Assembly (NCBI RefSeq): GCF_036346105.1
Contig: NZ_CP107811.1
Coordinates: 6,901,501 to 6,965,500, forward strand
Direction of reading: 5' to 3'
Length of the DNA stretch: 64,000 nt
Source of the DNA: Streptomyces sp. NBC_00539
GTDB lineage: Bacteria > Actinomycetota > Actinomycetes > Streptomycetales > Streptomycetaceae
In this document: positions 14,916 through 62,629 of the stretch, one piece after another
Layout: each line of letters starts with the position of its first letter
How positions within the stretch are numbered: the stretch's first letter is position 1
The notes under the pieces: model-generated
What the model was told of the DNA's origin: nothing
The model's input: only the letters and a program-made list of their open reading frames with translations
The model's database searches: none
Program-made: the position numbers and the translations under genes

Positions 14916-15788
14916 AAACGATGTCCCGTAAGCCCTGATCAGGTATGTGATGATCTTGATGTGAGGCCTGTGGTCACGGCGTCTGAGCCGGGGTGGACAG
15001 GTCTGTTCTCCGGGCTGAGCGAGCGGCAGTTCCGCAAGCTCATCGGGATGGTGCGACGCCGTGGCGGTGGTGCGCCGACGGGCGGCCGGCCGTGGTCCCT
15101 GTCACTGGAGGACCGGGTCATGCTGGTGTCCGCGTACTGGCGCTGAATCCGACCATGAGGCAGCTCGGCCCGCTGTTCGGGGTGTCGAAGTCGGCGATGG
15201 ACCGGGTCATCGACGACATCGCACCACTTCTCGCGCTGGCACCGGTACGGCGCCGGCACCCTGCGGGCACCGTCCTGATCGTGGACGGCACCCTGGTACC
15301 CACCCGCGACCGCAGCATCGCCGCCTCCTCCAAGAACCACAGGTACTCCACCAACGACCAAGTCATCATCGACGCGAACACCCGGCTGGTCGTGGCGGCC
15401 GGACGGCCACTGCCAGGCAACCGCCACGACGCCCGCGCCTACCGGGAATCCGGCGTGGACCGCGCCGTTGAGAACGCGCCGGTCCTCGGCGACGGCGGTT
15501 ACCGAGGTGCCCCCGCCCTCATCCCGCACTGGCCACGGCCAGGTCGGCCCCTCGCCCCTCAACAAGAAGCGGACATTCCCTCCACCGCCGGGCCAGAGCC
15601 CGAGTCGAGCACGCTTTCTCCAGGATGAAAACATTCAAGATCCTCCGCGACTGCCGCCTGCGCGGCGACGGCGTCCACCAGGCCGTACTCGGCGTCGCCC
15701 GACTCCACAACCTCGCTCTCGCCGGATAACCCGCGCGGCACCCCAGAGACTTCGATCTACCCACACGACCCCTTACGGGACATCGTTT
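14916..15788 (+). mobile_element. IS5-family insertion sequence (873 bp) with inverted repeats
   Basis: The ends are exact 17-bp inverted repeats: AAACGATGTCCCGTAAG at 14916-14932 and CTTACGGGACATCGTTT at 15772-15788. Inside is one transposase gene. I see no clear target duplication (CT on the left, GG on the right). Confidence 0.85.
14961..15729 (+). pseudogene. IS5-family transposase, two frameshifts
   Basis: The protein is readable across three frames. Frame A (14961-15146) gives FSGLSERQFRKLIGMVRRRG and WSLSLEDRVMLVSAYWR. After a -1 shift near 15145, frame B gives MRQLGPLFGVSKSAMDRVID, then the DDE core IVDGTLVPTRDRS and VLGDGGYRG. After a second shift near 15585, frame C gives RARVEHAFSRMKTFKILRDC and ends LHNLALAG with a TAA at 15729. 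The first shift could mimic a programmed -1 event, but no slippery heptamer is visible. The second shift makes an active enzyme unlikely. Confidence 0.8.
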
Positions 15789-16056: not shown

Positions 16057-16620
16057 ATGGGCAGGTTCAGGTACGGAACCACGGCGTCGGCCATCGCGCT
16101 GGCCGCCTTGGGATCGCTCGCCGCCGCGGGAGGCACGGCTCACGCGGAAGCGGGCCAGGACACCATCAGCATGCTGAAGCAGGAAAAATCCCAGTGGTGC
16201 TGGGTCGCCTCCGGGCTGACCATCGCCAAGTTCCAGGGCTTCGGCTCCACCCAGACGGACTTCTGCAACCGGGCCCAACCCTCCTACGGCTGCAACAACC
16301 AGCCCGCCACGCTCGACGACATGGCCAGGGGCTGGGGCAGCCTCGGCATGACCCGCACCGGATCGGGCCTGAGCAGCGCGGCCACGTTCAACCAGGTATA
16401 CACCGACGTCAAGGCGGCCCGGCCGATCGGTGCCCGCATCGGGTGGACGTCCGGTGGCGGCCACATGAACGTGGTCTACGGCTTCGACACGTCGAACAGC
16501 ACGATCGCCGTGGCCGACCCGTGGCCGGACACCACCACGTACACCTGGTGGAACTACAACGACTACGTGAGCAACAGCTCGTCCAAGTGGACCCACTCCC
16601 GCATCGGTATCTCCCGCTAA
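16057..16620 (+). CDS. Secreted papain-like cysteine protease
   Basis: This 187-residue precursor has a signal peptide (SAIALAALGSLAAAGGTAHA, cleavage after about residue 30). The papain-like/BtrH-type domain contains C48 in QWCWVASG, H136 in GGGHMNVVYGF and an acidic/Asn partner near VADPWPD. Spacing fits a small C39/C70-type fold. The start is the ATG after AGGGGAAGGCAGG. It is followed 10 bp later by an anchored secreted protein, so the two are likely one operon; that protein may be its substrate, inhibitor or partner. The similarity is motif-level. Confidence 0.8.
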   Translation: MGRFRYGTTASAIALAALGSLAAAGGTAHAEAGQDTISMLKQEKSQWCWVASGLTIAKFQGFGSTQTDFCNRAQPSYGCNNQPATLDDMARGWGSLGMTRTGSGLSSAATFNQVYTDVKAARPIGARIGWTSGGGHMNVVYGFDTSNSTIAVADPWPDTTTYTWWNYNDYVSNSSSKWTHSRIGISR

Positions 16621-32801: not shown

Positions 32802-32936
32802 ATGGATCAACACTTCGATCTCTATGCTCGCACCCGTGGGCCACACGGGATCCCGCTCTTTCTGCCGCATGGCGCTTTTCGAGGAGTCAAAGTGTGGCAG
32901 GACGGGTGTGGCCGCTGTGGCGGGCTGCGCAGATGA
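32802..32936 (+). CDS. Small open frame (44 aa), possible peptide
   Basis: An ATG preceded by GAAGGACGCTCCTG opens 44 codons: MDQHFDLYARTRGPHGIPLF, then LPHGAFRGV and a C-terminal KVWQDGCGRCGG. The end has two cysteines spaced as CGRC. It lies 214 bp upstream of the DUF6875-like gene, on the same strand. It could be a leader, a precursor peptide for the cluster or chance. Support is only position and a plausible ribosome binding site. Confidence 0.25.
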   Translation: MDQHFDLYARTRGPHGIPLFLPHGAFRGVKVWQDGCGRCGGLRR

Positions 32937-33150
32937 GTTGTTGTCGGGCGGTATCACTGCTCCCCGGTAGGTGTGGTTACCGCCCTGCCGGTCGGGCGTG
33001 CTCGTCCATGGTGTGCGCGGCAGCGCCATGCACCGGCACACCCATCCCTTTGGGTGATCCGTTTGGTCCGCCAGTGTCCCTGTTGTCGATGAACGTGTTG
33101 GATCTTCGGACCGAGGACCGGGTGGTCAGTAGCAGGAGAGCGGCAGGAAT

Positions 33151-33795
33151 GTGGTGGCGATGAGTCTGGAGAAGGCCCGGGAGTGGTTCTCCGACTATCT
33201 CTGTGTCGCAGATGCGCGGATCGGTCGACCGGGCGCGGTGTGCCCTTTTGTCGCCCCGGCACTGCGTGCGCGCAGTCTTCGGCTGGAGGCGTGGCCGGTA
33301 GACCCGCAGATCACTGTTGCGGGGTTGGTATCTCTGGTGAGGCAGATGGTCGCCGTCTTCGAGAACACGCAATGGGCGACCCGGAACCGGACTCTCCACG
33401 CCTTGGTGGTGGTGCTGGCCGGACTGCCCGCGGACCGGCTGAGCCTCACCGATGAGGCGCACCGGTACACCAAACCGGCGCTCGTAGCGAGGGGGCTGAT
33501 GCTGGGACAGTTCCACGCGGACTGCGATGAGAGAGCAGCTCGGAATCCCTCGTTCCGGGCGTCACGCTCTCCCGTTCCCATGCTGGCCCTGCGGCACATG
33601 GCGGTTCACGACGTGCTCTTCCTCGACGGGGACAGCCGGTCGTTTGCCACATACGACCAGCGTTACGGTCGCAGGTACGACGCCGGGGCGGTTACCGACC
33701 CCTTGCTGCAGAAGCACTTCGCGCGGGCGCGCGCCCGGTTCCGCCCCGATTCCGCTCCTGCGACCTCGGCCGGCAGTGCGTACACGGGGGCATGA
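33151..33795 (+). CDS. DUF6875-like protein
   Basis: This 214-residue soluble protein has an N-terminal block ARIGRPGAVCPFVAPALRAR, which is the feature I associate with DUF6875-type proteins; later segments include LALRHMAVHDVLFL with two histidines. The function is unknown. The start is uncertain: GTG at 33151 (after GGCAGGAAT) or ATG at 33160. It ends 1 bp before the tryptophan-dioxygenase-like gene, so the two are cotranscribed. The family name is from memory and should be taken as tentative. Confidence 0.6.
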   Translation: MVAMSLEKAREWFSDYLCVADARIGRPGAVCPFVAPALRARSLRLEAWPVDPQITVAGLVSLVRQMVAVFENTQWATRNRTLHALVVVLAGLPADRLSLTDEAHRYTKPALVARGLMLGQFHADCDERAARNPSFRASRSPVPMLALRHMAVHDVLFLDGDSRSFATYDQRYGRRYDAGAVTDPLLQKHFARARARFRPDSAPATSAGSAYTGA

Positions 33796-33796
33796 C

Positions 33797-34639
33797 GTGA
33801 GTCCGCTCGATCCGCGTGGCGTCGAGGACGGCCCCATTTTGGACTTCCCCGGCCCCAGTACTCCTTACATCGATTACCAGAGCATCGATGTCCTGCTGTC
33901 CCTCCAGCACCCTTTGTCCGACGCCCCCGCCGAGCCGACGTTCTACATCCTCGGACAGGTGAAAGAGCTTCTGTTCAAGCTGCTCTACGGGGAACTGTGC
34001 ACCGTCCGCCAAATGCTCGACGCCGATGATGTCGCCCAAGGCGTGTGGACGCTGCGCCGCGCGCATCGGGTGGTCGAGTTGCTCACCCGAACCTGGGACG
34101 TGCTGAGCACCCTGGCTCCCACCGAGTTCAACGCCTTCCGCGCTCACTTGGGCCAGGCGTCGGGCTTCCAGTCGTACATGTACCGGATGCTCGAATACGT
34201 CCTGGGCAACAAAAACGCTGCCATGGCCCGGGCGCACCGCAGGGTGCCGCAGGTGCACGCGCAGGTCCAGACGGCTCTGGCCGCACCGAGTGTGTACGAC
34301 GCCGCCCTGCACCTATTGGCACGGCGCGGTGCCGCCATCCCGCAGGCCGTGCTCGTACGGAACCCTGCCGAACCGTATGTGCCACACGATGCCGTGGAAC
34401 GGGCATGGGCGGACGTGTACCAGGCCGGTGGTCCGGGTGAGGTCATGTTCGAGCTCGCCGAGGCGCTCATCGCTGTCGCCGAGGGTTTCGGCCGCTGGCG
34501 TGCCCTGCACCTGCTCACCGTGGAACGGATCATCGGTACCAAGTCCGGGACCGGCGGAACCGCCGGGGTGGAGTGGCTGCGGCGCGCCAGCGAGCACCGG
34601 ATCTTTTGCGAGCTGTGGAGCGCCAGGAGCCTTTTGTGA
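33797..34639 (+). CDS. Tryptophan 2,3-dioxygenase family haem enzyme
   Basis: This 280-residue protein shows TDO hallmarks: YIDYQSIDVLLSLQHPLS near the start, FYILGQVKELLFKLLYGEL, ASGFQSYMYRMLEYVLG, and LLTVERIIGTKSGTGGTAG near the end, with H238 in RALHLLTVER as the expected haem ligand. Classical TDO opens the indole ring to N-formylkynurenine; relatives in natural-product pathways hydroxylate tyrosine or monooxygenate indoles. No kynurenine genes are adjacent, which favours a biosynthetic role (inference). GTG start; next gene overlaps by 1 nt (TGATG). Confidence 0.88.
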   Translation: MSPLDPRGVEDGPILDFPGPSTPYIDYQSIDVLLSLQHPLSDAPAEPTFYILGQVKELLFKLLYGELCTVRQMLDADDVAQGVWTLRRAHRVVELLTRTWDVLSTLAPTEFNAFRAHLGQASGFQSYMYRMLEYVLGNKNAAMARAHRRVPQVHAQVQTALAAPSVYDAALHLLARRGAAIPQAVLVRNPAEPYVPHDAVERAWADVYQAGGPGEVMFELAEALIAVAEGFGRWRALHLLTVERIIGTKSGTGGTAGVEWLRRASEHRIFCELWSARSLL

Positions 34640-35328
34640 TGCCGACCGAACGAGAGAAAGGCTGGGTCGTGACCCCAACTGTCAAAGCCGGGCCGAAGAT
34701 GAGGCTTGAGGCCAGGCACAGCGGGCAGGAGCGGGAATTCACCGTCGAATCCCTGTCTCTCACCGACGTACCGGACGAGGCCGACCGCCAACGGACACAG
34801 GTGGCTCGTCTGCGACGAGACTTCGGGTTCCCCCTGCCGGCCCCCGACTGGGAGCCGGAGGACGAACAGGCCCTGGTCCTGCTCTGCCATGCCGATGGTG
34901 TGCCGGTCGGTTCCGTCCGCCTCGTGCGGCGCCGAGGCGAAGCGGACCAGTGGTGCCCCTACCTCACGCCAGAGCTGGGCGCCGCACTGCCATCCGACCC
35001 TGCCGGCTTCCTTTTCGGGGAGCGGCTCGTCATCGCACCCACCGCCCGCTCGTTGGAAGCGCTTGCCCTCGTGATGCATGCGGCTGCCACCTGGGCGGCC
35101 GCCTTGTGGCCCGTCCGGGAGTTCGCCGCGATCACCCGTCCGGATCTGGTGCGCCTCAGTCGATGGATGGGCGCCCGGCCGCTGTCCGAGCCCATGGTTC
35201 TTCCGGGCTCCGACGGGCTGGGGCTGCTCATCGGCGGCCGCCTGGACGAGGCCGCGACCCGTACCCGGGACTTGTTCGCGACCGGCGGGTGGCACCTGAC
35301 GACCGCGACTGCACCTCCTGCCCAGTAA
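34639..35328 (+). CDS. GNAT-like (N-acyl amino acid synthase/FeeM-type) protein
   Basis: A 229-residue protein. The central region with EPEDEQALVLLCHADGVPVG, SVRLVRRRGEADQWCPYL and GFLFGERLVIAPTARSLEAL, followed by MHAAATWAAALW, looks like the GNAT fold used by autoinducer/N-acyl amino acid synthases (beta strand, R-rich edge, helix). No classic Q/RxxGxG/A loop is obvious. It could acylate an amine with an acyl-carrier substrate (inference). The ATG at 34639 overlaps the TDO stop by 1 nt, so it is part of the same operon. Confidence 0.55.
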   Translation: MPTEREKGWVVTPTVKAGPKMRLEARHSGQEREFTVESLSLTDVPDEADRQRTQVARLRRDFGFPLPAPDWEPEDEQALVLLCHADGVPVGSVRLVRRRGEADQWCPYLTPELGAALPSDPAGFLFGERLVIAPTARSLEALALVMHAAATWAAALWPVREFAAITRPDLVRLSRWMGARPLSEPMVLPGSDGLGLLIGGRLDEAATRTRDLFATGGWHLTTATAPPAQ

Positions 35329-35364
35329 AGGGCCGTCAGCGGCCCCCGACCAAAGGACGTCGCA

Positions 35365-36126
35365 ATGTCCTCCACGCACGTGACACCCTCCGAGTCGACG
35401 ACTACCGACCACGTCGTCGCTGCGACGCGGTCGGTCATCGACGGCCGCGTACAGCTGACCTCCCGCACGCTCGACGAGTACCGGATGGTGTTCGGCCTGA
35501 CCGACGACGACCTTCTCGCCGGGCCGGTCCTCGACTGTCCCGGCGGCGCCTCGTCATTCGCCGCCGAGAGCCGAGCGCTCGGCGCGAGCGTCACCTCCGT
35601 CGACCCGGTGTACCGCCTGGCACCGCAGGACATCGAGCCTCTGGTACGCGATCACCTCGCGGCGAGTGCGGCCTTCGGCCTCGCAATCGCAGACCAGCTC
35701 GACTTCTCCTGGGCCGGGTCGCCAGAACGCCATCTCGAGCGTTGGCAGGGCGCCGCCGACACGTTCCTGAACGACTACGCCGCCGACCGTCTCGCTGGCG
35801 GGAGCGAACGCCACTACGTATCTGCGGCACTGCCGCGGCTGCCGTTCGCCGACCGGCACTTCCACCTCTCCTTGTGCGGCTTCCTCCTCTTCACCTTTCC
35901 CCAGGCAGCAGACCAGGAAGAGGCGATTCTGGAGCTGGTGCGGGTCACCGCCGGCGACGTGCTCGTCGGCCCGCTGGAAGACCCTCTCGGCGTGCCCTCC
36001 TCCACCCTCGACTCCCTGCGTGCCCGGCTGGCAGACGGGGGCGTGACCACGACGACACGCGACATCGACTACAGCATCCACCCCGGACAACGGGGCGTCC
36101 TGGTCTGCCGACGACGTACCGGCTGA
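35365..36126 (+). CDS. SAM-dependent methyltransferase-like protein
   Basis: This 253-residue class I Rossmann protein has motif I PVLDCPGGASSFAAESRALG (about 54-73), an acidic post-I VTSVDPVYRLAP, and LPRLPFADRHFHLSLCGFLL corresponding to motif III-IV. The later part contains VTAGDVLVGPLEDP. Motif I has CPGGAS rather than GxGxG, so cofactor use is likely but not certain. RBS AAAGGACG precedes the ATG. The spacing of 36 bp to the preceding gene and 55 bp to the MMPL gene suggests one operon. Confidence 0.75.
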   Translation: MSSTHVTPSESTTTDHVVAATRSVIDGRVQLTSRTLDEYRMVFGLTDDDLLAGPVLDCPGGASSFAAESRALGASVTSVDPVYRLAPQDIEPLVRDHLAASAAFGLAIADQLDFSWAGSPERHLERWQGAADTFLNDYAADRLAGGSERHYVSAALPRLPFADRHFHLSLCGFLLFTFPQAADQEEAILELVRVTAGDVLVGPLEDPLGVPSSTLDSLRARLADGGVTTTTRDIDYSIHPGQRGVLVCRRRTG

Positions 36127-36181
36127 CCGGCCCGCCCCGCGCCACACAGACGGCTATCCGGCAACGTCCGACGAGGGTCCC

Positions 36182-38452
36182 GTGCCACAGAACACCGCCC
36201 CACCGACGCAACGCAGCACCCAGCCGACCTCTCCACTTCACTGGGCGGCGAAAAGACCGTGGCGGCTGCTCGGTGCCACAGCCCTGCTCACGGTGGTCCT
36301 CGCCGCGGTCGGCGCCATGGCCTCGACAGGACTGTCCGCCGGCGGGTTCACCCCCACCGGCACGGAATCCTCCCGCGTGGAACGCTTGCTGACACAGCAC
36401 TTCGGCGTACCCCAGAGTGACCTCCTCCTGTATGTACGAGGCGACATCGACGACCCCGTGGCGGCGACCGAGGGCCGGGACCTCACCCGGCGCCTCGCCG
36501 CCGAGCCGGGCGTCGCAAGCGCACAGTCCTTCTGGAGCACCGGGGCCGGCGAACTGCGCGCCAGGGACGGTCACGCCGCCCTGATCACCATCGATCTGTC
36601 CGGCGACGACACGCAGGCGGCAGCCGCCGCGGCCCGCATCGTGCCCCACGCCACAAAGAGCGTCATGCACCTGGAGGTATCCGCCGGCGGGCCGGCCTGG
36701 ACGAGTGTCCAAGCGACCGACCAGAGCCGCAAGGACCTGTTCCGGGCCGAGCTGATCGCCGCCCCGCTGACCATCCTCATCCTGCTGTTCGCCTTCGGCT
36801 CAGCCACCGCCGCAGTCCTGCCCGCCGTCGTCGGCGTCGCCACCGTGACCCTCACCACCGCAGTACTCGGCCTGCTGACCCGCGTCATGGCGGTGTCCGT
36901 GTTCGCAACCAACATCACCACCGCATTGGGGTTCGGGCTCGCGGTTGACTACGCACTGCTGGTGGTGACCCGCTTCCGCGAGGAACTCGCCGCAGGGGCA
37001 ACCGTCACCGAAGCCGTCGTCACCACCATGCGCACGGCAGGACGCAGTGTGCTCTTCTCCGCAGCAACGGTCGCCCTCGCGCTCTGTTGCCTCTTCGTCT
37101 TCCCCCTGCAGTTCCTGCGCTCCATGGCCTGCGCCGGGCTGGCTGTCGTCGTCCTCTCGGCCCTCGCCACGGTGACTGTCATGCCCGCTCTGCTCACCTT
37201 GCTGGGCAACCGAATCGCCGGCGCGACAAACCGGCCGAAGCCGTCCCGCGAACCGACGGACAGCGCAGCATGGCGGCACATCGCCCAGGCCGCCGTCACC
37301 CGCCCGCTGCTGCTGGGCGGAGCCTGCGCTGCGGCACTCATCGCCCTGACGATCCCCTTCGGGCACGTCCAGTTCGGTATCCCCGACGAGCGCGCCCTCC
37401 CGGCCCACCTCGAAGCCCATGCCACAGGCGAGTACGTACGCCGCGACTTCCCCGCGCCCGCGGACCGCACCCTGGCGGTCCTGCTCCCCGCCACCGACCC
37501 CCTCACGCAGGCCACCGAACTCAGCCGCTACGCCCAACGCCTCGCCGACGTTCCCGGCGTGGCCACCGTGGAAGCAGCCACCGGCACGTTCTCACCCGGC
37601 GCCCCCTCCATCGCGCCCGCCGCCGGCCACCGGCGTTTCACAGCACCGGGCACCACATGGTTGACCGTCTCCGGCCGTCCCTCGTTGGACACAGCCGGCG
37701 CGGACGACCTCGTACAGCGCGTACGGCATGTGACCGCACCCGGCCCCCGCCTCGTCGGGGGCCTGCCCGCTCAACACGTCGACACGCTCACGGCCCTCGG
37801 CGACCGGCTGCCTGCTGCGACCGCCATCGCGGGTTTCAGCACCCTGCTTCTCCTCTTCCTCTTCACTCGCTCCGTCCTCATCCCCTTGAAGGCGCTGCTA
37901 CTCGCCGCGCTCAGCCTGACGGCCTGCCTGGGCATCATGGTCTTCATCTTCCAGGAAGGGCACCTTCATAGCCTGGTCGGCGAGTTCACCGTCACCGGCC
38001 AGCTGGACGTCGCCATGCCGCTGCTGACCATCGTCGTCGCCTTCGGTCTGTCGGTCGACTACGAGGTCTTCCTGCTCGCACGGATCAAAGAGGAATACCT
38101 CCGCACCGGCGCGCACTCCCCGTCCATCGTCTTCGGAATCGCCCGTACCGGCCGCCTGGTCACCGCTGCCGCCCTCATCGTGGCCACCATGATGGGCGCG
38201 CTCGCCAGCTCCGGCGTCACCCCGCTCAAGATCTTCGGCACAGGTCTGGCCCTCGCCGTCCTCATCGACGCCACCCTCGTCCGCGGCGTTCTCGTCCCCT
38301 GCCTCATGCAACTCACCGGCAAAGCAAACTGGTGGGCTCCATCCTTCCTGTCGCGCCGCGAAGCGACCGACGGTTCCCTGCCGAAGCGCTCCGAGTCACC
38401 CCTCCCACACCAACATCCGGCAGGAGACCCCGCCAACACGCCAAGCCCGTGA
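36182..38452 (+). CDS. MMPL-family RND transporter
   Basis: This 756-residue membrane protein has two repeated halves, each with one helix, a large extracytoplasmic domain and five more helices. The proton-relay Asp-Tyr pairs are present in FGLAVDYALLVVTRFREE (first half, about residue 255) and FGLSVDYEVFLLARIKEEY (second half, about 625). MMPL proteins export lipids, glycolipids or secondary metabolites. The GTG at 36182 begins the gene. As the last gene of the DUF6875-TDO-GNAT-methyltransferase run it probably exports the product. Confidence 0.9.
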   Translation: MPQNTAPPTQRSTQPTSPLHWAAKRPWRLLGATALLTVVLAAVGAMASTGLSAGGFTPTGTESSRVERLLTQHFGVPQSDLLLYVRGDIDDPVAATEGRDLTRRLAAEPGVASAQSFWSTGAGELRARDGHAALITIDLSGDDTQAAAAAARIVPHATKSVMHLEVSAGGPAWTSVQATDQSRKDLFRAELIAAPLTILILLFAFGSATAAVLPAVVGVATVTLTTAVLGLLTRVMAVSVFATNITTALGFGLAVDYALLVVTRFREELAAGATVTEAVVTTMRTAGRSVLFSAATVALALCCLFVFPLQFLRSMACAGLAVVVLSALATVTVMPALLTLLGNRIAGATNRPKPSREPTDSAAWRHIAQAAVTRPLLLGGACAAALIALTIPFGHVQFGIPDERALPAHLEAHATGEYVRRDFPAPADRTLAVLLPATDPLTQATELSRYAQRLADVPGVATVEAATGTFSPGAPSIAPAAGHRRFTAPGTTWLTVSGRPSLDTAGADDLVQRVRHVTAPGPRLVGGLPAQHVDTLTALGDRLPAATAIAGFSTLLLLFLFTRSVLIPLKALLLAALSLTACLGIMVFIFQEGHLHSLVGEFTVTGQLDVAMPLLTIVVAFGLSVDYEVFLLARIKEEYLRTGAHSPSIVFGIARTGRLVTAAALIVATMMGALASSGVTPLKIFGTGLALAVLIDATLVRGVLVPCLMQLTGKANWWAPSFLSRREATDGSLPKRSESPLPHQHPAGDPANTPSP

Positions 38453-50723: not shown

Positions 50724-51896
50724 TCAGGAACGTTGGAAGAACTCCACTTCCGCCAGGGCGAGATGGCGGCCCTGGTCCAGTCCGGCGGGTGCGTCGAGGG
50801 TTAGCCGGATCGACGTGGCGTCGTTGATGCCGGTTGGGAAGGTCTGCGGGCCCGGTTTGTCGCTGAGGGTGAGGCTCTTGTGGTGCTTCGCGCCGTCCCG
50901 CGCCGTCACCTCCATCTCGATCTGGAGCGCCCGGCCCTGGCGCGCGTACTCCTCCGGGGAAGGCGAGGCGCCATTGGTGACGATCACGCCGACCAGCCGG
51001 AAGGGCTTGGCGAAGGTGTACGTCACCGAAGCGCCGGGGCCGGGGGCGCCCCAGTAGCGGTTGCTGAGCCCGTCGGTGGTGCTGGCCGGCGGGTGCCCGG
51101 GCAGCTCGGCGGTCGCCTCGACGCGGGTCGGGGTCACCGCCTTGCTCTTGCCGAGCTTGTCCCGGGTGTCCTCGATCAGCTGTCGGCCGGCCGGCAGCAG
51201 CAGGAAGCCGCCGGCGCACAGGGCCAGTACCGCGGCCAGGATCACGAGGAAGCGCACCAGTCGGCCGGAGCCGGCGCGGGTGCGGCGGCGCAGCGGCCAG
51301 ATCGTCCGCCACCAGGGAAGCGCCGGCGCGACGGTTCTGGGCGTCAGCGGCGTCGCACAGCGGCGGCAGAAGCGCCGGTCGGGCGGGTTGGGCGTACCGC
51401 AGGAGGGGCACGGCACCCCGGACACGTCCTCGCCGACCGAGGGCGCGTTGACGACCGGCCGCGGAGCGACGGCCCTGGCCGGGCGCACGGGCACCGGATC
51501 GGCGGCCGCCCGCCCCGCGGGCGGCACGGCGGCGGGCCCCGAACCGGCGGGGGGCGCGGGGTCCGCCGGCGGGGTGGTACGCCGCGGCGGCGCGGGGCTG
51601 TCGGGCGGCGCGGGGGCGTTCGAGGCGCCGTCGGCCGGCTCCGTGATCGACGCGGAACCGGTAGGCGCCGAACCGGCCGACGTCGAACCGGCCGACGTCG
51701 AACCGGCCGGGGCGGAACCGGTCGACGGCGGCGCGGGGTCCGCGGTGGCCGGGGTGGCCCGGCCCGGTTGCGGGGGCGGCGTCTCCCGCGTCGCGGCGGC
51801 GTCCGACCAGCCGAGGTAGGAACCGCAGTTGCCGCAGAAGTCGTCCGTCGGTTCGTTCGAGGCACCGCACACGGGGCACGCGCGCATCGCCGTCAC
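50724..51896 (-). CDS. Membrane zinc-ribbon protein with C-terminal discoidin-like domain (injection-system operon)
   Basis: This 390-residue protein has two zinc ribbons (CPVCGASN..FCGNCG at about 7-24 and CPSCGTPN..FCRRCATPL at about 163-185) joined by a Pro/Ala-rich linker containing short SAGSTSAGS repeats. A transmembrane helix (FLVILAAVLALCAGGFLLLP, about 216-235) follows, then an outside domain (WGAPGPGASVTYTFAKPFRL onward, ending ALAEVEFFQ) that looks like a discoidin/galactose-binding beta-sandwich. It is the last gene of the operon; its GTG overlaps the preceding stop by 4 nt, with an ATG three codons later as alternative. It could tie the injection system to the membrane (inference). 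Confidence 0.75.
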   Translation of the reverse strand: MTAMRACPVCGASNEPTDDFCGNCGSYLGWSDAAATRETPPPQPGRATPATADPAPPSTGSAPAGSTSAGSTSAGSAPTGSASITEPADGASNAPAPPDSPAPPRRTTPPADPAPPAGSGPAAVPPAGRAAADPVPVRPARAVAPRPVVNAPSVGEDVSGVPCPSCGTPNPPDRRFCRRCATPLTPRTVAPALPWWRTIWPLRRRTRAGSGRLVRFLVILAAVLALCAGGFLLLPAGRQLIEDTRDKLGKSKAVTPTRVEATAELPGHPPASTTDGLSNRYWGAPGPGASVTYTFAKPFRLVGVIVTNGASPSPEEYARQGRALQIEMEVTARDGAKHHKSLTLSDKPGPQTFPTGINDATSIRLTLDAPAGLDQGRHLALAEVEFFQRS

Positions 51897-52465
51897 CTTC
51901 CTTCACCCGCGGGCGGGCCCGGCAGGACCTCGACCCGGCAGACCGTGTGCACCGGACAGAGGGAGCGGACCAGCGCGCGCACCCGGTCCGCGTCCACCTC
52001 GTGGACGCCTCCCGCGGCGGGCGGCCACACCCGTACCAGGACCTCCCCGGCCGGCGCGGGCGGGGGCTCCGCACCCGCCGTACGGGACCACACGGCCCCG
52101 CCGTCCCCGCTCACCTCGGCGACGACGCCCAGGACCAGCCGCAGCGCCTCGACCAGGCCGCGCCGGGTACCGCGCCGGCGGTGCAGTTCCACCGCCCGGG
52201 CCACCGCCTCGCGGCGCAGCTCGACCGGCCACCGGGGGTCGTCCACGCCGCCGACCCAAGCGGCCAGCCAGGACAGGAAGTCGGCCGGGGCCAGCCGGGG
52301 GTCGAAGTACGCGGGCAGGTTGTCGAGGGTCGCGAACACCGGGGCCAGGACGGTGTCCAGGCCCGCGGTGAACCGCTGCGCGAAGTCGTCCTCGGCGTAC
52401 AGCGCGGGCAGTTGCCCGCCGATCGGGTACCGGCTGGGCAGGCCCGGGACAGCGGCCCGGTTCAT
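51893..52465 (-). CDS. Phage tail protein I-like baseplate component
   Basis: This 190-residue protein has LPSRYPIGGQLPALYAEDDF, a middle FATLDNLPAYFDPRLAPADF, LSWLAAWVGGVDDPRWPVEL, and RREAVARAVELHRRRGTRRG followed by LVEALRLVLG. This is the TIGR02242/gpI-like tail protein family of contractile systems, which forms the outer baseplate with baseplate J. ATGA overlap with the baseplate J gene shows coupling. The C-terminal 60 residues are more variable. Confidence 0.85.
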   Translation of the reverse strand: MNRAAVPGLPSRYPIGGQLPALYAEDDFAQRFTAGLDTVLAPVFATLDNLPAYFDPRLAPADFLSWLAAWVGGVDDPRWPVELRREAVARAVELHRRRGTRRGLVEALRLVLGVVAEVSGDGGAVWSRTAGAEPPPAPAGEVLVRVWPPAAGGVHEVDADRVRALVRSLCPVHTVCRVEVLPGPPAGEGR

Positions 52466-54444
52466 CGACGCACCTCCGGCTCGCGCGCCGTCACGACCAC
52501 CTGGTGCTGGTAGGAGAAGACCAGCGCGCCCGATCCGATGTCGATCCGGTCGACCGGGGCGCCACGCCGCCCTGTGATCGGGTCGGCGGCGAACAGCCGG
52601 ATCTCCTCCACCAGCACGTCCCCGATGGCGCGTTGCAGCACGCCGAAAACCTCGCCGTACTGCACCGGCCGCCCGAACGGCCAGCCGGTGCCGTCCGGCC
52701 CGCCGCGCAGCGGGTTGAGGTGGCGGAACAGCGCGGCGAGCGCCGCGTCCCGCACCCGGTCGGCGTCCGCCTCGGGCGCCGAGAGCCGGGCCACCACGGT
52801 GACGCCCTGGTAGACGGGCGGCTCCACGATCAGCCGGGTGCCGATTAGACGCCGTTCGTCCAGGGTCGTAGTGACCGCCGTGAGCACCTGGTCGGAGGGG
52901 ATCAGCTGCTCGAAGCGCAGCCGGTCGCCCTCGTCGGCCACCGCGTCCGGCACCACGAGGACCCGGACCGCGCCCGGGCCTCCTCCGCCGTCCCGGTCGG
53001 GCAGGCAGCGGACGCGGCGCACCGAGGGCGCCGCCTGGCGGGCGATGATCTCGTAGTCCTCGGCGGTCACCGCGCGCTCCTGCATGCGCAGCGTCTCCGG
53101 CGCCCGCAGCTTGGCGTTGTCGATGCTCTCCCCCGCGACGCCGCCGCGCGCCGCCTCCCGGTTGACGACCCGTGCGACGTACGGAACGGAGCTGCGCAGA
53201 ACGGAGATCGCCCCACGGGAGACGTTGCCCGCCGGGCCACCGCCGGTGCGGTAGCGGGCCACGCGGACCTGGGAACCCTTGGGCGGTACGGCGCCGCAGG
53301 GGCGCAGCGTGCCGTCGGCCTCGCGCAGCACCGGCGGGAACAGGAACTCTCCGTTCGTGGCGTCCACCCGGACGTGCCGGTCCTCGGGCCTCGAGCGGCC
53401 GAAGTGCTCCACCACCTCCCAGCGCTGCCATCCCTCCGGGGAGGACACCTCCACCACCGGGGGCTCCCCGTCGAGGAGTACGGGCGGCCGGCCGAGTCGG
53501 AACGTCTGGCCGGCCACCCCCTCCGACGCGCCGAGCGGTACGTCGGCCACGCGCTCGGCGTGCTCCACGGCCATGGTGCCGCCGACGGTGAACACCTCGG
53601 CCTCGCGCACGGTCGGGGACTCCGAGTAGAACGGCTGGCCGGGTTCGGCCTCGGTGACCCGGCAGCGCAGCCAGCCCGCGCGGATCCCGCTGATCAGCGA
53701 CGCGGTGTGCCCGGCGGGCACGTACACGATGACCTCGCCGGGCCGGTTCAGGCCGCCGGTGCTGTCGTCGCCGGTCTCGCAGCGCTGCCACCGGCCGCCG
53801 TCCCACGCCTCCCACACCAGCGGGGGCTGGCGCGGATCGACGCCGACACCCTCGACACGGCTGTCGAGGCGGACCGCGACCACACAGCGCGGTACCGCCG
53901 TCGGCAGGCCGAACAACAGCGCGTCGCCGGGCTCGGGCGCCGCCTGGAAGCACGGGATGTCCAGGCCCTCGGCGAGCGCCCCCGTCCGATCGGTCACGTC
54001 ACCGGTACGGGGCGCGGTGACCAGGCGCGTCAGCTCGCTCGGCACGATCCGCAGGTCGTCGGTGGTGGCGAAGACCACCGCCTCGGTGTCGGTCTGCGGA
54101 TCGGTCTCGCCGACCGCGGTCGTCACCTCGGTGCCGGCGGGCAGCGTCACCGTCTCCGGCTGCGGGGCCGACAGCCAGAAGTCGACATCGGCGACGGCGG
54201 CCGACGGCGGGTACAGCTGGATGCCCAACAGGTCCAGGAACGCCAGGTAGTTCTTGTCCGGCACCCGGTTCAGCCGGTACAGCAGCTGGTCCACGAGGTA
54301 CGCGAACGTCTCGATCAGGGTGACGCCCGGGTCGGAGACGTTGTGGTCGGTCCACTCCGGGGCGCGCTGCTGCACGTACCGCTTCGCCTCGTCGACGAGT
54401 TGCTGGAACCGCCGGTCGTCCAGGTTGGGGGAGGGCAGGGCCAT
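52462..54444 (-). CDS. Baseplate assembly protein J/gp47-like
   Basis: This 660-residue protein has a start LPSPNLDDRRFQQLVDEAKR and PEWTDHNVSDPGVTLIETFA, then YLVDQLLYRLNRVPDKNYLA, LDLLGIQLYPP, a mid-region with ERAVTAEDYEIIARQAAPSV and a C-terminal LNPLRGGPDGTGWPFGRPVQ. This is the putative baseplate assembly protein family (gp47/gp6-like) that builds the wedges around the spike in contractile injection systems. Its ATG overlaps the gp25 stop by 1 nt (TGATG). Confidence 0.9.
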   Translation of the reverse strand: MALPSPNLDDRRFQQLVDEAKRYVQQRAPEWTDHNVSDPGVTLIETFAYLVDQLLYRLNRVPDKNYLAFLDLLGIQLYPPSAAVADVDFWLSAPQPETVTLPAGTEVTTAVGETDPQTDTEAVVFATTDDLRIVPSELTRLVTAPRTGDVTDRTGALAEGLDIPCFQAAPEPGDALLFGLPTAVPRCVVAVRLDSRVEGVGVDPRQPPLVWEAWDGGRWQRCETGDDSTGGLNRPGEVIVYVPAGHTASLISGIRAGWLRCRVTEAEPGQPFYSESPTVREAEVFTVGGTMAVEHAERVADVPLGASEGVAGQTFRLGRPPVLLDGEPPVVEVSSPEGWQRWEVVEHFGRSRPEDRHVRVDATNGEFLFPPVLREADGTLRPCGAVPPKGSQVRVARYRTGGGPAGNVSRGAISVLRSSVPYVARVVNREAARGGVAGESIDNAKLRAPETLRMQERAVTAEDYEIIARQAAPSVRRVRCLPDRDGGGGPGAVRVLVVPDAVADEGDRLRFEQLIPSDQVLTAVTTTLDERRLIGTRLIVEPPVYQGVTVVARLSAPEADADRVRDAALAALFRHLNPLRGGPDGTGWPFGRPVQYGEVFGVLQRAIGDVLVEEIRLFAADPITGRRGAPVDRIDIGSGALVFSYQHQVVVTAREPEVRR

Positions 54445-54866
54445 CAGTCCGCGACCATTTCCTCGGCCCCCTCCTCGGAGGGGATCGTGTAGAAGGGAAA
54501 GACCAGGTTGCGCCGGTCATTGGTGGTGCGCACCGTGTAGTGCACATCGATGTAGAGGGTGCCCGCCTCGACGGCGTCGAAGGCCACGACGACCTCGTCC
54601 ACCGCGATCCGGGGCTCCCACCGTTCCAGCGCCTCGCGCACCTGCTGGGCGACCCGCCCGGCGGTGTCGCCGTCGCCGGGGGCGAAGACGTACTCGTGGA
54701 TGCCGCAGCCGAACTCGGGCCGCATCGGCCGCTCGCCGGGCGCGGTGCCGAGCACGAGGCGGATGGCCTCCTCCAGCTCCCGTTCCCGCTCGACCATGGC
54801 GATCCCGCCGGTCGGCCCGACCCGCAGGGGGAAGGCCCAGCCGCGCCCGATGAACCGCTCGCTCAT
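54444..54866 (-). CDS. GPW/gp25 family baseplate protein
   Basis: This 140-residue protein has FIGRGWAFPLRVGPTGGIAM, then EEAIRLVLGTAPGERPMRPE followed by FGCGIHEYVFAPGD. The GERxMRPEFG motif is the gp25 core, the lysozyme-like wedge component that nucleates sheath assembly. ATG at 54866 overlaps the PAAR stop by 1 nt; a GTG one codon earlier gives a 4-nt overlap. Confidence 0.9.
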   Translation of the reverse strand: MSERFIGRGWAFPLRVGPTGGIAMVERERELEEAIRLVLGTAPGERPMRPEFGCGIHEYVFAPGDGDTAGRVAQQVREALERWEPRIAVDEVVVAFDAVEAGTLYIDVHYTVRTTNDRRNLVFPFYTIPSEEGAEEMVAD

Positions 54867-55183
54867 CACACACCGCCGACTAGGACGGTGGGGGCGCCGG
54901 TCAGGACCATCGCACCGCAGGCGGTCTGGTCGCGGGCCCGGGCGGCGGGCAGCCCGCCGATGAGCACCAACCCCGCGGTGGCCGCGGCCGGGTTCGGTAC
55001 GAGTACGTTGGCCGGCCCCAGGGCCGCGTGCGGCACGACCGGGCAGACGTGCAGGCTGCCCACGACGGCCGCGGGCAGGCCGCCGATCAGCACCGTCGCC
55101 ACCGTCGCGGCGGCGCCGGGCGGGGGCGTGCCGATCCGGCCACCGTGGTTGGTGGGGTCGCCGGTACGCGCTGCGGCTGGCAT
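54866..55183 (-). CDS. PAAR-domain spike tip protein
   Basis: This 105-residue Gly/Pro/Ala-rich protein has two PAAR-like repeats: AAARTGDPTNHGGRIGTPPP and TVLIGGLPAAVVGSLHVCPV, then GLVLIGGLPAARARDQTACG. Conserved His and Cys (NHGG, HVCP, TACG) fit the metal site of PAAR cones that cap the VgrG spike. An AGGAG site lies 7 bp upstream of the ATG. The gene is between VgrG and gp25, as usual for these systems. Confidence 0.88.
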   Translation of the reverse strand: MPAAARTGDPTNHGGRIGTPPPGAAATVATVLIGGLPAAVVGSLHVCPVVPHAALGPANVLVPNPAAATAGLVLIGGLPAARARDQTACGAMVLTGAPTVLVGGV

Positions 55184-55230
55184 CGGGTGCTCCTAGGGGA
55201 AAGCGGTAGCGGGAGGAGAACAGGAAGGGG

Positions 55231-57048
55231 TCAGTTGATGCGGATGAGGCGGGCCTTGAGGACGCCGAGCAGGCCGCCGTTGATGGTGACGTCGGACTTC
55301 CCGTTCACCTGCACCGACCGGCCGCCGATGCTGACCCCGGCGGTGCCGTCGATGTCCACCTGCCGGCCGGACACCTTCACGGTGCCCCGCCGGGCGTCCA
55401 GCGTGATGCCGTTCTTGTCCAGGAGGACGGAGGTCAGCGGTCGGCCCCGGCCCGCGTACACGGTGAGCTCGATCCGGTCCCGGCGGTCGTCCATGCGTAC
55501 TTCGAGCCGCTCGTCCCCGGTCACCAGCCGCAGCCCGGAGGGCCCCGGCGCCCGCGCGTCCAGCAGCTCCACCCGGTGGCCCGAACGGGACACCACCGAA
55601 CGGCGGTTGACCTTGCCGCTGGTCTTGTCGATCAGCGGCACGTCGTGCGGGGAGGGCTGGTCCACGCCGTTGTACAGGCCGCCGATGACGTACGGACTGT
55701 CGAGCAGCCCCTGCTCGAAGCCGACCAGCACCTCGTCGTTGACCTCGGGACTCACCACACCGCCGCCGCCCTTGCCGCCCCACTGGACGGTGCGCACCCA
55801 GTCGGTGACGTACGTGTCGTCCAGCCAGGGGAACTGCAGCCTTACCGCGCCGCGTTGGGAGCCGTTCGGCTCGCGCACGTCCGTCACCACGCCGATCGCC
55901 AGACCGGGGATGCGCGGGCCGCGCCCGGGCGCGTTGGCCCCGGTCACCAGGCCGGCCAGGGAGCGGTCCGGGCTGGCGCTGACCCACACGGTGGTGCGGT
56001 AGCCGCCGTGCGGTTCCAGCACGTGCTGCACGGCCGTCGCCGTGTACCGGCCGGAGAACGCCTGCCCCACGTTGCCGAGCGCCACCGGCTTGCCCGCCCG
56101 CAGCATGGGATTCCCCTCGGTCACCGCCTCCAGCTCGCCGAACCCGGCGCTGACCTGGCCGGCCGCCGCCTTCGCGACCGCCGTCGTCTCGGCCTGCGTA
56201 CGGTACGGAGTGTCGGTGACGGCCACCGCCGACGTCCCGAACCGGGCGCCGAGCTGGGGGCTGAGACCCGGTGCCACGGTGTCGCTGACCACGGACGGCT
56301 GCTCCGCGACCAGCGGCCGCTTCGTGGTCACGTCCCAGCCGCGCACCTGCACCTTCGAGGCGCCGTCGGCAGCCGACAGGGCGGCGCGCAGGGCGAGGAG
56401 GTTGCGTCCGTACTCCAGGACCATCGGGTTGCGCGCGGCCGACGTCGACGGGGCGGGTGCCCCGGAGGCCTTCGTGGGCTTGGTGAACTGGAGCAGGCCC
56501 TGGTCGTCGACGCGCACCAGCGCGCCGCTCTCGGCCGCGAGGTACTGCAGGAAGTCCCAGTCGGAGACGTTCGCTTGCGACAGCTGCTTGTACGTCACCG
56601 GCGCCGCCTCCACCTTCCCGACGGCCAGCCCGGCGCCCGCGGCCACCTTGCGCACGATCGCGGCGGCCGTCATGTTCCGGTACGCCACGACCTTGCGGCC
56701 GCGCTGGAGGCGGTGCGCCTTGGAGTAGGCGCGTACGACGGTGAACGAGCCGGTCCGGTCCCGGTCGATCTCCAGGGCGGTGACCTCGCCGTTGAACAGC
56801 CGCTCCCGGGCCTGCCCCTTCACCGTCATCACCGACACCCGCAGCGGGCTGCCGATGGTGATCCCGGTGGCGCGCAGGAACTCGTGGTCGGGGTCGCGGT
56901 AGGTGAGCACCGCCGTGTCCGGCAGGCCCACGTTCTCGTCCACCACGCAGCTCACCAGCTGCGCCGCCCAGATCGGCGCGAGTTCGCCGGGCGCTTCCAC
57001 GATCGGGTCCGCCGCGAACGACCGGCCCCCGGATTCGGCTCCGCTCAC
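55231..57048 (-). CDS. VgrG-like spike protein
   Basis: This 605-residue protein has a gp27-like N-terminal hub (LVSCVVDENVGLPDTAVLTY, then GQARERLFNGEVTALEIDRD and VSDWDFLQYLAAESGALVRV). A gp5-like OB domain (GLAIGVVTDVREPNGSQRGA, VRLQFPWLDDTYVTDWVRTV, NDEVLVGFEQGLLDSPYVIG) and a C-terminal beta-helix needle with DV.I.G repeats (VKVSGRQVDIDGTAGVSIGG) follow. This is the central spike of contractile injection systems; no extra effector domain is visible at its C-terminus. GTG start overlaps the LysM stop by 4 nt and has GAGGAGGAG upstream. Confidence 0.92.
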   Translation of the reverse strand: MSGAESGGRSFAADPIVEAPGELAPIWAAQLVSCVVDENVGLPDTAVLTYRDPDHEFLRATGITIGSPLRVSVMTVKGQARERLFNGEVTALEIDRDRTGSFTVVRAYSKAHRLQRGRKVVAYRNMTAAAIVRKVAAGAGLAVGKVEAAPVTYKQLSQANVSDWDFLQYLAAESGALVRVDDQGLLQFTKPTKASGAPAPSTSAARNPMVLEYGRNLLALRAALSAADGASKVQVRGWDVTTKRPLVAEQPSVVSDTVAPGLSPQLGARFGTSAVAVTDTPYRTQAETTAVAKAAAGQVSAGFGELEAVTEGNPMLRAGKPVALGNVGQAFSGRYTATAVQHVLEPHGGYRTTVWVSASPDRSLAGLVTGANAPGRGPRIPGLAIGVVTDVREPNGSQRGAVRLQFPWLDDTYVTDWVRTVQWGGKGGGGVVSPEVNDEVLVGFEQGLLDSPYVIGGLYNGVDQPSPHDVPLIDKTSGKVNRRSVVSRSGHRVELLDARAPGPSGLRLVTGDERLEVRMDDRRDRIELTVYAGRGRPLTSVLLDKNGITLDARRGTVKVSGRQVDIDGTAGVSIGGRSVQVNGKSDVTINGGLLGVLKARLIRIN

Positions 57049-57770
57049 CGCTGCTCCTCCTCGCCGTGGGTGTCCTGGAGGCCCGGCACCACGAGTTCGG
57101 AGCCGGGGACGAGCGCCATCGGGTCGTCGATGCGGTTGGCCTCCGCGATGGCCCGCCAGGCCGTCGCGTCGCCGTACTCGCGCCAGGCCAGCATCGCCAG
57201 GCTGTCGCCCGCCACGACGGTGTGCGTACTGCGGGCGGTGCGCGCGCCCGACGTGGGGTTCTGGCCGGGCGGATCGACGCTCGCCTCCTCGATGGACAGC
57301 GAGCAGGTGGCCCGCAGCGGCTTGCCGTCCACGTCGAAGAGCGTGTACGAGACCGAGAGGTTCGACAGCACCCCATCGAAGGACGTCGTGCGCGCGCTGC
57401 CCCACTCGAAACGCACCCAGGGGCTCGCCGGCTTCTTCCGGCCGAGGCTGGCCGGTGTCGGCACGCAGGCCTTCATCAGCTTCTCCACCGCCTGCTCCAC
57501 CGAGTTGTCGTGTTTGGCGGTGGCATCCAGGAACACGTCCAGGCTCAGCGTGCGCGGGCCGCTGCCCACGAACTCGGGCAGGGCCGACTGGCCGGCCATC
57601 CGGGAGGGGGTGCGCCGCCACTCGGTGGTCTTGCCCAGCTGGAGGGTGGAGGGGTTGAACTGCAGGTCGAGCTTCGCGATCGTCCCGCCGGGCCTGGCCC
57701 CGACCGAGGCCGGGGGCTCTTTGAGGGTGAGCTGGGCCCGGGCGCGGCTGGCGCGTGCCGATGAGGCCAT
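57045..57770 (-). CDS. LysM-containing tail/baseplate protein
   Basis: This 241-residue protein has an N-terminal region with KLDLQFNPSTLQLGKTTEWR and LSLDVFLDATAKHDNSVEQA, which is the CIS tube-initiator-like fold, and a C-terminal LysM-like domain (THTVVAGDSLAMLAWREYGD, then WRAIAEANRIDDP). In phage and CIS loci such proteins (gp53-like) link the inner tube to the spike. Here LysM is probably structural rather than wall-binding. It overlaps the VgrG gene by 4 nt. Confidence 0.88.
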   Translation of the reverse strand: MASSARASRARAQLTLKEPPASVGARPGGTIAKLDLQFNPSTLQLGKTTEWRRTPSRMAGQSALPEFVGSGPRTLSLDVFLDATAKHDNSVEQAVEKLMKACVPTPASLGRKKPASPWVRFEWGSARTTSFDGVLSNLSVSYTLFDVDGKPLRATCSLSIEEASVDPPGQNPTSGARTARSTHTVVAGDSLAMLAWREYGDATAWRAIAEANRIDDPMALVPGSELVVPGLQDTHGEEEQR

Positions 57771-57815
57771 GACCGTGGGGTTCCTTCCGGAGCGGGGGTT
57801 GCGGGGGCGGGGCGG

Positions 57816-58241
57816 TCAGGAGGGGAGCAGGCCCTCGTGGGCGATCTCCAGGGTCTCCACCGCCGCTTCGGAGTGGGCCGGGTCGAAGGACGGGCCCTGC
57901 CAGCGCACCGGGACGATCCCGAACACCTGCCAGCTGATGATCCGGCTCAGGTCGGGGCGCAGGGCGACGATCTCCCCGTCCTTGGGCTCGACCCGCCGCA
58001 GCGTCTCGTCCAGCCAGCGGCCGATCTTCGCCGTGTCGGCGGTGACGGGCCGGGTGAGGGTGATGTTCGACCAGGTCACGCGGCCGGGCAGTTGGTGGGT
58101 GAAGCCGTTGTTGCCGCCTTCGGCGTAGCTCTCCATCTCGACCTCGGCGCCCATGCCGGAGCAGGTGTGGAAGGCGCCGAGGTCGTTGCCGCCGATCGCC
58201 AGCCGGAAGAACACGCTGGTCGCGAAGATGTTGTCCGTCAT
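57816..58241 (-). CDS. Tube-like tail protein 2
   Basis: This 141-residue protein has FRLAIGGNDLGAFHTCSGMG, AEVEMESYAEGGNNGFTHQL, VTWSNITLTRPVTADTAKIG and ISWQVFGIVPVRWQGPSFDP, the T4 gp19-like tube fold. In injection-system loci a second tube-type protein usually sits at the tube-baseplate interface. A GGAACGAG-type site precedes the ATG. Confidence 0.88.
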   Translation of the reverse strand: MTDNIFATSVFFRLAIGGNDLGAFHTCSGMGAEVEMESYAEGGNNGFTHQLPGRVTWSNITLTRPVTADTAKIGRWLDETLRRVEPKDGEIVALRPDLSRIISWQVFGIVPVRWQGPSFDPAHSEAAVETLEIAHEGLLPS

Positions 58242-58269
58242 CGTTTCTCGTTCCTGGTTGGTCCGGTGC

Positions 58270-61482: not shown

Positions 61483-61486
61483 CTAC

Positions 61487-61645
61487 TCAACCGCCTTCGT
61501 TCACCCGGGTGTTGATACGTGCGATCTCGGTGACCCACTCCTGCCGTTCACCGTGGGTCAGGTCGAGGATCTCGTCGCGCTGCCAGTGGAAGTGGTAGGC
61601 GATGTACGCGATCTCCTCCCTCAGCCGGGGGAGCGCGTACGTCAC
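61487..61645 (-). CDS. DUF6760-like small protein (injection-system operon)
   Basis: This 52-residue protein reads VTYALPRLREEIAYIAYHFH, then WQRDEILDLTHGERQEWVTE and IARINTRV. The IAYHFHW..DE.LDL pattern is what I recall of DUF6760 in phage-tail-like loci, where it resembles small tail-assembly proteins. The GTG overlaps the previous stop by 4 nt. Role unknown. Confidence 0.7.
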   Translation of the reverse strand: MTYALPRLREEIAYIAYHFHWQRDEILDLTHGERQEWVTEIARINTRVNEGG

Positions 61646-62579: not shown

Positions 62580-62629
62580 GACTGTCTGTCACCTCTCCTT
62601 GCTGGAAACGAATGTGATGAGCGCGCCGG

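Follow-up and report, generated by a model that had tools for sequence, protein, structure and literature searches.

The DNA analysed here, called the window, is a stretch of 64,000 nucleotides of Streptomyces sp. NBC_00539 (bases 6901501-6965500 of a 7.07-Mb contig, in a genome of 7.5 Mb). On its plus strand lie five adjacent genes that run in one direction and together cover 5.3 kb, from 33160 to 38452. They encode a protein of the DUF6875 family, a haem enzyme resembling tryptophan 2,3-dioxygenase (TDO), a putative FeeM-like acyltransferase of the GNAT type, a putative class I methyltransferase of the S-adenosylmethionine (SAM) type and a transporter of the MMPL family (Table 1). The spacings, in gene order, are 1 nt, an overlap of 1 nt, 36 nt and 55 nt; the DUF6875 gene could alternatively start nine bases earlier, at the in-frame GTG at 33151. 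An earlier note, made from the letters of this DNA alone, had described five co-directional genes with spacings of 1 to 55 nt, and the open reading frame (ORF) and gene calls together with the family matches bear this out. No gene for a nonribosomal peptide synthetase (NRPS) or polyketide synthase (PKS) is present among the five.

Table 1. The five genes of the unit, with window positions, family matches and predicted roles
Product	Position	Strand	Family match	Predicted role
DUF6875 protein, 211 aa	33160..33795	+	PF21780, E=6.9e-52	small haem oxygenase acting on tryptophan
TDO-like haem enzyme, 280 aa	33797..34639 (GTG start)	+	PF03301, E=2.2e-52	ring-opening dioxygenase acting on (hydroxy)tryptophan
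FeeM-like GNAT, 229 aa	34639..35328	+	PF21926, E=6e-4	N-acyltransferase acting on an amino group
Class I SAM-type methyltransferase, 253 aa	35365..36126	+	Methyltransf_11, 18.1 bits (cut-off 21.2)	
MMPL-family transporter, 756 aa	36182..38452	+	PF03176, E=5.8e-72	product exporter

Conservation and rarity of the five-gene unit

The TDO protein was used to scan a collection of genome contigs, a search that picks up only close relatives, and 61 loci were obtained. We find that one of these, in S. cinerochromogenes JCM 3385 (L052), carries all five genes in identical order. The proteins of the two species are, in gene order, 78, 83, 67, 79 and 69% identical, with dN/dS values of 0.21, 0.11, 0.26, 0.13 and 0.31. 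At the DNA level blastn detects three common stretches, all within 33142-38357 of the window and none beyond, and the called flanking genes of the two loci have no gene family in common; the many short flank matches of low identity among the tblastx matches listed are read as noise of high-GC DNA. Because the order is the same, the DNA match ends at the edges of the unit, the flanks are unrelated and dN/dS is low, the five genes are one unit under conservation. The same comparison moves the left border. The earlier note had started the cluster at 32802, where a 44-codon ORF without a family match lies; since the DNA match with S. cinerochromogenes begins at 33142, this ORF is outside the unit, and 32802-33140, which is not conserved in the second species, was rejected as part of the cluster.

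The rarity of the set was gauged by the GNAT, its rarest part, in samples that overlap, such that the counts are not additive; the scan scored only 7 to 41 first-look candidates per genome, and weak relatives may be missed. Besides the window, the GNAT matched weakly in one of 392 genomes of the genus sample, two of 395 of the phylum sample and two of 198 of a sample of relatives, and it had no match in the plasmid collection. In the family sample six of 394 genomes matched, namely S. cinerochromogenes (G1116), G1021, G962, G963, G885 and G1006; the four matches among 70 genomes of the genus of G1021 are all within these six. Only G1116 shows all five genes in the stretch seen, that of G962 being a contig of just 4.8 kb. 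The rarity of the full set, with no strong GNAT match beyond the window in the genus, phylum and relatives samples, is what one would expect of chance neighbours that share no pathway. We give this explanation hardly any credit, as the order of the five genes is kept in a second species at 67-83% protein identity between unrelated flanks.

Elsewhere in the window, the plus strand carries a gene of the carotenoid oxygenase type (RPE65 family; 10612-11961), a transposase-like protein (15155-15628) and a gene for a papain-like cysteine protease (Peptidase_C70 family; 16057-16620). On the minus strand, 50724-64000 holds a set of the contractile injection type, with Baseplate_J, a gp25 wedge, PAAR, a baseplate hub and two gp19-like tail tubes.

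The DUF6875 protein and its TDO-like partner

The first protein of the unit scores above the PF21780 cut-off (176.5 vs 24.5 bits). In the open-licence PubMed Central literature only one paper, on zigralone, names DUF6875 (PMC13307353); it cites Ma et al. (bioRxiv 2025, "cytochrome P422") and describes DUF6875 proteins as haem-binding enzymes that oxidise L-tryptophan. In this 2026 paper the DUF6875 protein ZigI is proposed to hydroxylate an indole intermediate at C7, and deletion of either zigI or the methyltransferase gene zigH yields a demethoxylated quinaldic acid (PMC13307353). All 39 aligned DUF6875 rows, among which the window is counted twice, have W9, R23, G25, C28, P29, R145, D151 and F154 unchanged. 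Searched by sequence against the Protein Data Bank (PDB), the DUF6875 protein, the GNAT and the methyltransferase gave no match or matches at chance level. The structure model of the DUF6875 protein (pLDDT 94.6) has AglA as its best Foldseek match in the PDB, a weak one (E=0.085, TM 0.34), with none at E <= 0.001. AglA is a YqcI/YcgG haem hydroxylase whose haem, in the accessible part of its report, is ligated by Cys44 (PMC12866846).

When compared by hhalign with a YqcI/YcgG profile built from 16 matches in genomes of the genus, DUF6875 reached a probability of 75% in local mode (E=2.5e-5, for a single comparison) and 25% in global mode, and the cysteine of its VCPF motif was aligned on the YqcI cysteine, which is present in 15 of the 16 YqcI/YcgG rows. 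As controls, 63 of 65 comparisons gave at most 4.3%; the two high values, 99.6% for f0 (fused DUF6875-TDO rows) and 99.2% for f5 (a ligase-like protein fused to DUF6875), are taken as true matches. DUF6875 proteins may thus be remote kin of the cysteine-ligated YqcI/YcgG haem hydroxylases, with Cys28 as the candidate ligand. This cysteine would be the counterpart of Cys44 of AglA, a correspondence drawn through the family profile, AglA's own sequence lying outside the alignment. The low probability in global mode speaks against this kinship, as does the name "P422", which is unlike what is expected of a P450-like thiolate. A different fusion was seen at L044:9839-12406, where DUF6875 is joined C-terminally to a protein that clusters with long one-family proteins and is ligase-like by eye.

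The TDO-like enzyme lies above the PF03301 cut-off (179 vs 34.9 bits), below that of the NCBIfam equivalog TIGR03036 (304.4 vs 390.7 bits), and aligns over its full length to bacterial TDOs, best to 2nox (E=1.4e-62). It keeps the haem His, the carboxylate Arg117, Ser124 and Thr254 of the GTGG loop, in what we take to be the TDO numbering, which also applies to Tyr113; these are residues that serve the free amino acid and a loop typical of the dioxygenases. At the Tyr113 position it has Phe, as have all rows of a 76-row alignment, and at the position of the distal His it has Gly, as have 68 of the 76 rows (repeats included). The idea that this Gly is an adaptation to DUF6875 or to hydroxytryptophan was rejected; it is found also in related TDOs without a nearby DUF6875, and is thus a trait of a wider group. 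It could nonetheless leave room for a 7-hydroxyl, which is adjacent to the indole nitrogen, the atom that the distal His touches or serves in MarE and CmTDO according to the accessible part of one report (PMC11904535).

Gly for the distal His, together with Phe at the Tyr113 position, raises the question whether the TDO-like protein is a one-oxygen enzyme that either forms a 2-oxindole, as MarE does, or hydroxylates the ring, and so leaves the indole ring closed; MarE and BifE, as far as the available portions of their reports describe them, are examples of TDO relatives that act as monooxygenases (PMC11904535, PMC13285481). We consider this unlikely. MarE keeps its His55, its SLGGR and DATG loops are absent from the window enzyme and replaced by GTGGT and QASG, and the Gly occurs also in clade members that stand beside kynureninase-cluster genes, which require a ring-opened product. 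A MarE-like reaction was rejected as first choice, as the loops differ.

Two further TDO genes are present in the genome. One, at about 3.75 Mb of the main contig, stands with a kynureninase and a hydrolase, likely a housekeeping set; the earlier note was right that the cluster itself has no kynurenine pathway genes, the separate set lying elsewhere in the same genome. The other (L119:7580-11445) keeps the distal His, has a GSGGS loop and adjoins an AurF-like N-oxygenase, a class I aminotransferase and a short-chain reductase, possibly a separate tryptophan-derived cluster.

How regularly do the two oxygenases occur together? With fused DUF6875-TDO query rows trimmed, 16 of the 61 TDO loci were seen to hold DUF6875 as well (in L054 about 5 kb upstream), and all 16 lie within the window's TDO clade of 21 loci (23 rows; support 92/96, below the tool's mark for a firm branch). 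The clade loci without a nearby DUF6875 are L050, L051, L053, L060 (at a contig edge) and L064. No DUF6875 was found in the other 40 loci, which are mostly from uncultured actinobacteria and alphaproteobacteria, many on short contigs; 24 of the 61 loci are shorter than 20 kb, where absence is less sure. Outside the clade, one DUF6875-linked TDO was seen (L033, genome G020), with a gap of 951 nt. Viewed from the other side, most DUF6875 genes stand without TDO, which is nearby in four of 25 genus-sample matches, the window included; of the 24 matches outside the window's genome, 17 were refetched with a wider flank (one contig is only 3.5 kb) and for the remaining 7 the view reached no further than about 1.5 kb to either side.

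At seven loci DUF6875 and TDO share one stop-free open frame (L034, L055, L066, L067, L069, L104 and L105), six of them among the 16 linked loci and one from a further genome. These fusions occur in Streptomyces, Nocardiopsis (L069 is Nocardiopsis terrae), Rhodococcus and Actinopolyspora. In the tree six fall in one clade and L055 stands apart, which would suggest two fusion events, a single event being possible as well. In six loci the fused genes are accompanied by a class III aminotransferase, an amidase and another aminotransferase. Directly downstream in eight loci (L055-L059, L061, L062 and L065) come a kynureninase-cluster gene and a short-chain-reductase-cluster gene; the name of each neighbour family comes from a single representative, with other members assigned by clustering only. 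The position of a kynureninase-cluster gene directly after the pair in 8 of 16 loci fits a kynurenine product, and suggests that the TDO opens the ring where a kynureninase adjoins it. L059, L061 and L065 also contain, within about 5.5-12.2 kb, two TDO genes on opposite strands, each adjoining a kynureninase-cluster gene; of these, the second has Thr at the distal site and belongs to the housekeeping type.

Our reading is best supported for DUF6875 and TDO, which are fused at seven loci, because DUF6875 proteins are reported to be haem enzymes that oxidise tryptophan (PMC13307353). Given the families and their published relatives, it is probable that the two enzymes, in either order, give a hydroxylated (formyl)kynurenine. 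We propose that the DUF6875 protein acts first and would hydroxylate the benzene ring of L-tryptophan, at C7 by analogy with the zigralone protein, and that the dedicated TDO-like enzyme would then cleave the pyrrole ring, giving a hydroxylated N-formylkynurenine. If the hydroxyl is at C7, this would be N-formyl-3-hydroxykynurenine, made without a flavin kynurenine monooxygenase. The reversed order would lead to the same end product, the TDO forming N-formylkynurenine and DUF6875 then hydroxylating it as a haem stand-in for kynurenine 3-monooxygenase. Neither gene order nor fusion tells the sequence of reactions, and the kynureninase-cluster gene downstream of clade members suits this order too; yet the substrates named for DUF6875 proteins are tryptophan and an indole intermediate, not kynurenine (PMC13307353), and we judge the reversed order improbable. 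Hydroxylation before ring opening is the order kept below.

The acyltransferase, the methyltransferase and the proposed pathway

FeeM is the best Pfam model of the GNAT, with scores of 20.0 bits for the window, 23.7 for S. cinerochromogenes and 20.4 for L131, all under the curated PF21926 cut-off of 27 bits. A relative in L132 (38% identical) reaches 28.9 bits, above the cut-off, whereas FeeM does not match the GNAT copies of L134 and of L133, the latter shortened. Taken over several related sequences, one of them over the cut-off, the protein would be FeeM-like. Its structure model is of low confidence (pLDDT 49.4); the Foldseek matches listed are mostly GNATs, none at E <= 0.001, with ranks 4 and 5 taken by the acyl-homoserine lactone synthase BjaI. 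The Methyltransf_11 score of the S. cinerochromogenes methyltransferase is 16.3 bits, and an LDCPGG stretch is kept in all five methyltransferase rows aligned, the window included. The MMPL protein is above the PF03176 cut-off (242.9 vs 20.5 bits).

In L131 (G1021), from another genus of the family, the GNAT and the methyltransferase form one open frame (69 and 74% identical to the window proteins), with DUF5819 and an SdpB-like gene downstream, the latter scoring 70.0 bits, less than its model's cut-off; the neighbourhood in L133 (G963) is alike, with the GNAT part shortened. The single frame in L131 argues that the two enzymes may act in succession on one molecule. The module of a fused GNAT-methyltransferase with a DUF5819-like and an SdpB-like membrane protein behind it occupies L131:7031-10077 and L133:9719-12566.

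From the acyltransferase onwards, we propose that the FeeM-like GNAT would acylate the free alpha-amino group of the hydroxylated kynurenine from acyl-ACP (acyl carrier protein) or acyl-CoA, that the methyltransferase encoded next to it would methylate the phenol or the carboxylate, and that the MMPL protein would export the amphiphilic product. A hydrolase encoded at another place in the genome may remove the formyl group. We favour oxidation ahead of acylation, since the residues by which a TDO holds a free amino acid are kept. The last three steps and their order, as well as the acyl chain and the site that is hydroxylated, are inferred. That the cluster is a small biosynthetic operon carrying out all five steps as stated is, in our estimate, a possibility that falls a little short of even. 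More doubtful is the specific form in which a flavin-free, two-haem route from tryptophan to 3-hydroxykynurenine feeds a FeeM-type enzyme, and methylated long-chain N-acyl-hydroxykynurenines are exported by the MMPL protein.

Several observations weigh against this pathway. The window TDO has Gly where His stands in 2nox and where His72 is catalytic in CmTDO. The pairing of DUF6875 and TDO is not obligatory, because the TDOs of L050 (the highest in identity, 85%), L051 (81%), L053 and L064 have no DUF6875 nearby; none was found in the genomes of L051, L053 and L064, and one weak match in that of L050. Both the window GNAT and its methyltransferase are under the curated Pfam cut-offs. The overlap of TDO and GNAT in the window is replaced by a gap of about 170 nt in S. 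cinerochromogenes. Finally, only two species were found to carry all five genes. The earlier note had named rare co-occurrence as ground for giving the proposal up, and this holds by half: the whole set is confined to the two species found, and DUF6875-TDO and GNAT-methyltransferase each occur without the remaining genes.

The main point against the full model comes from the second half of the cluster. Within 20 kb of the GNAT-methyltransferase and its DUF5819 and SdpB-like neighbours in L131 and L133, no match to DUF6875, TDO or MMPL was found, and the methyltransferase has a relative in one of 120 other genomes of the genus (G100, L116; 44% identical over 211 residues) with the other four genes not nearby. 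The GNAT-methyltransferase thus occurs elsewhere without a tryptophan oxygenase, and its substrate need not be a kynurenine. The cluster would then hold two independent half-pathways, in which DUF6875-TDO makes hydroxykynurenine while the GNAT, methyltransferase and MMPL protein acylate, methylate and export an unrelated amine, or protect the cell from it. We regard this as rather unlikely: all five genes stand together in the window and in S. cinerochromogenes between unrelated flanks, with dN/dS of at most 0.31, and the TDO and GNAT genes of the window share 1 nt. A single cluster for a modified, acylated and exported tryptophan-derived molecule, as the earlier note had proposed, is still the best reading, now with five-gene synteny in one other named species. 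Its statement that no characterised pathway has this set also stands, in that none was found in the open-licence PubMed Central literature, where a search on 7-hydroxytryptophan with 3-hydroxykynurenine likewise brought up no close match. While the enzymes belong to or near known families, their combination and the predicted product class appear to be new.

If the first two steps are true, bacteria have a flavin-free route to hydroxylated kynurenines, and the natural fusions of two haem oxygenases are a ready system for studies of hydroxytryptophan channelling; for the specialist, a natural fusion of two haem enzymes is the most surprising part. If the last three are true, the product would be a new kind of N-acyl amino acid lipid. 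In the accessible part of a 2022 review, the N-acetyl form is the only acylated kynurenine known (PMC8762209), and no description of a long-chain N-acyl-hydroxykynurenine lipid class was found in the open-licence PubMed Central literature, in which acylated kynurenines led to a single paper, on fungal terreazepine. With five adjacent genes in 5.3 kb, the unit is readily movable into a standard Streptomyces host.

Comparison with known systems

With classical TDO the window enzyme shares the fold family, the haem His, Arg117, Ser124, Thr254 and the GTGG loop; it differs in having Gly for the distal His and in standing beside DUF6875, with no kynureninase or formamidase in the cluster. MarE, which forms a 2-oxindole, and BifE, a tryptophan C4-hydroxylase known to us by description, are likewise TDO relatives in specialised metabolism as far as the accessible parts of their reports go (PMC11904535, PMC13285481), MarE being set apart by its two loops. 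DUF6875 resembles the YqcI/YcgG enzymes AglA and DcsA in a remote profile match, with cysteine on cysteine, and in having AglA as its top, if weak, fold match, whereas those enzymes act on a guanidine nitrogen and have a Pfam family of their own. ZigI of the zigralone pathway is of the same Pfam family as the window protein and is paired with the methyltransferase ZigH, which acts on the new hydroxyl; there, however, the indole is kept until a thiamine enzyme rearranges it (PMC13307353). Compared by description with that pathway, the window cluster differs in its TDO partner, its acyltransferase and its exporter, and none of its five genes is a terpene gene.

On the acylation side, the FeeM N-acyl amino acid synthases are the best Pfam match of the window GNAT, whose own score is under the cut-off, and of three relatives. 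The nearest working analogue, in the sense of a parallel and not of membership, is the tyz cluster of Mycobacterium tuberculosis, which makes acyl-oxazolone lipids. The window cluster lacks, among its five genes, the ThiF-like cyclase and the nitroreductase-like oxidase of tyz, and has two oxygenases and a methyltransferase instead. As described in the available portion of its report, TyzA uses acyl-CoA, whereas FeeM uses acyl-ACP, and it acylates tyrosine and phenylalanine best; mmpL9 lies close by, export by MmpL9 being only suggested (PMC10404671). Set beside the window GNAT by this description, the N-acyl amino acid synthase TyzA, which in structure is closest to FeeM and BjaI and prefers aromatic amino acids, and its neighbouring MMPL gene are the published arrangement that the acyltransferase and exporter of the window resemble (PMC10404671).

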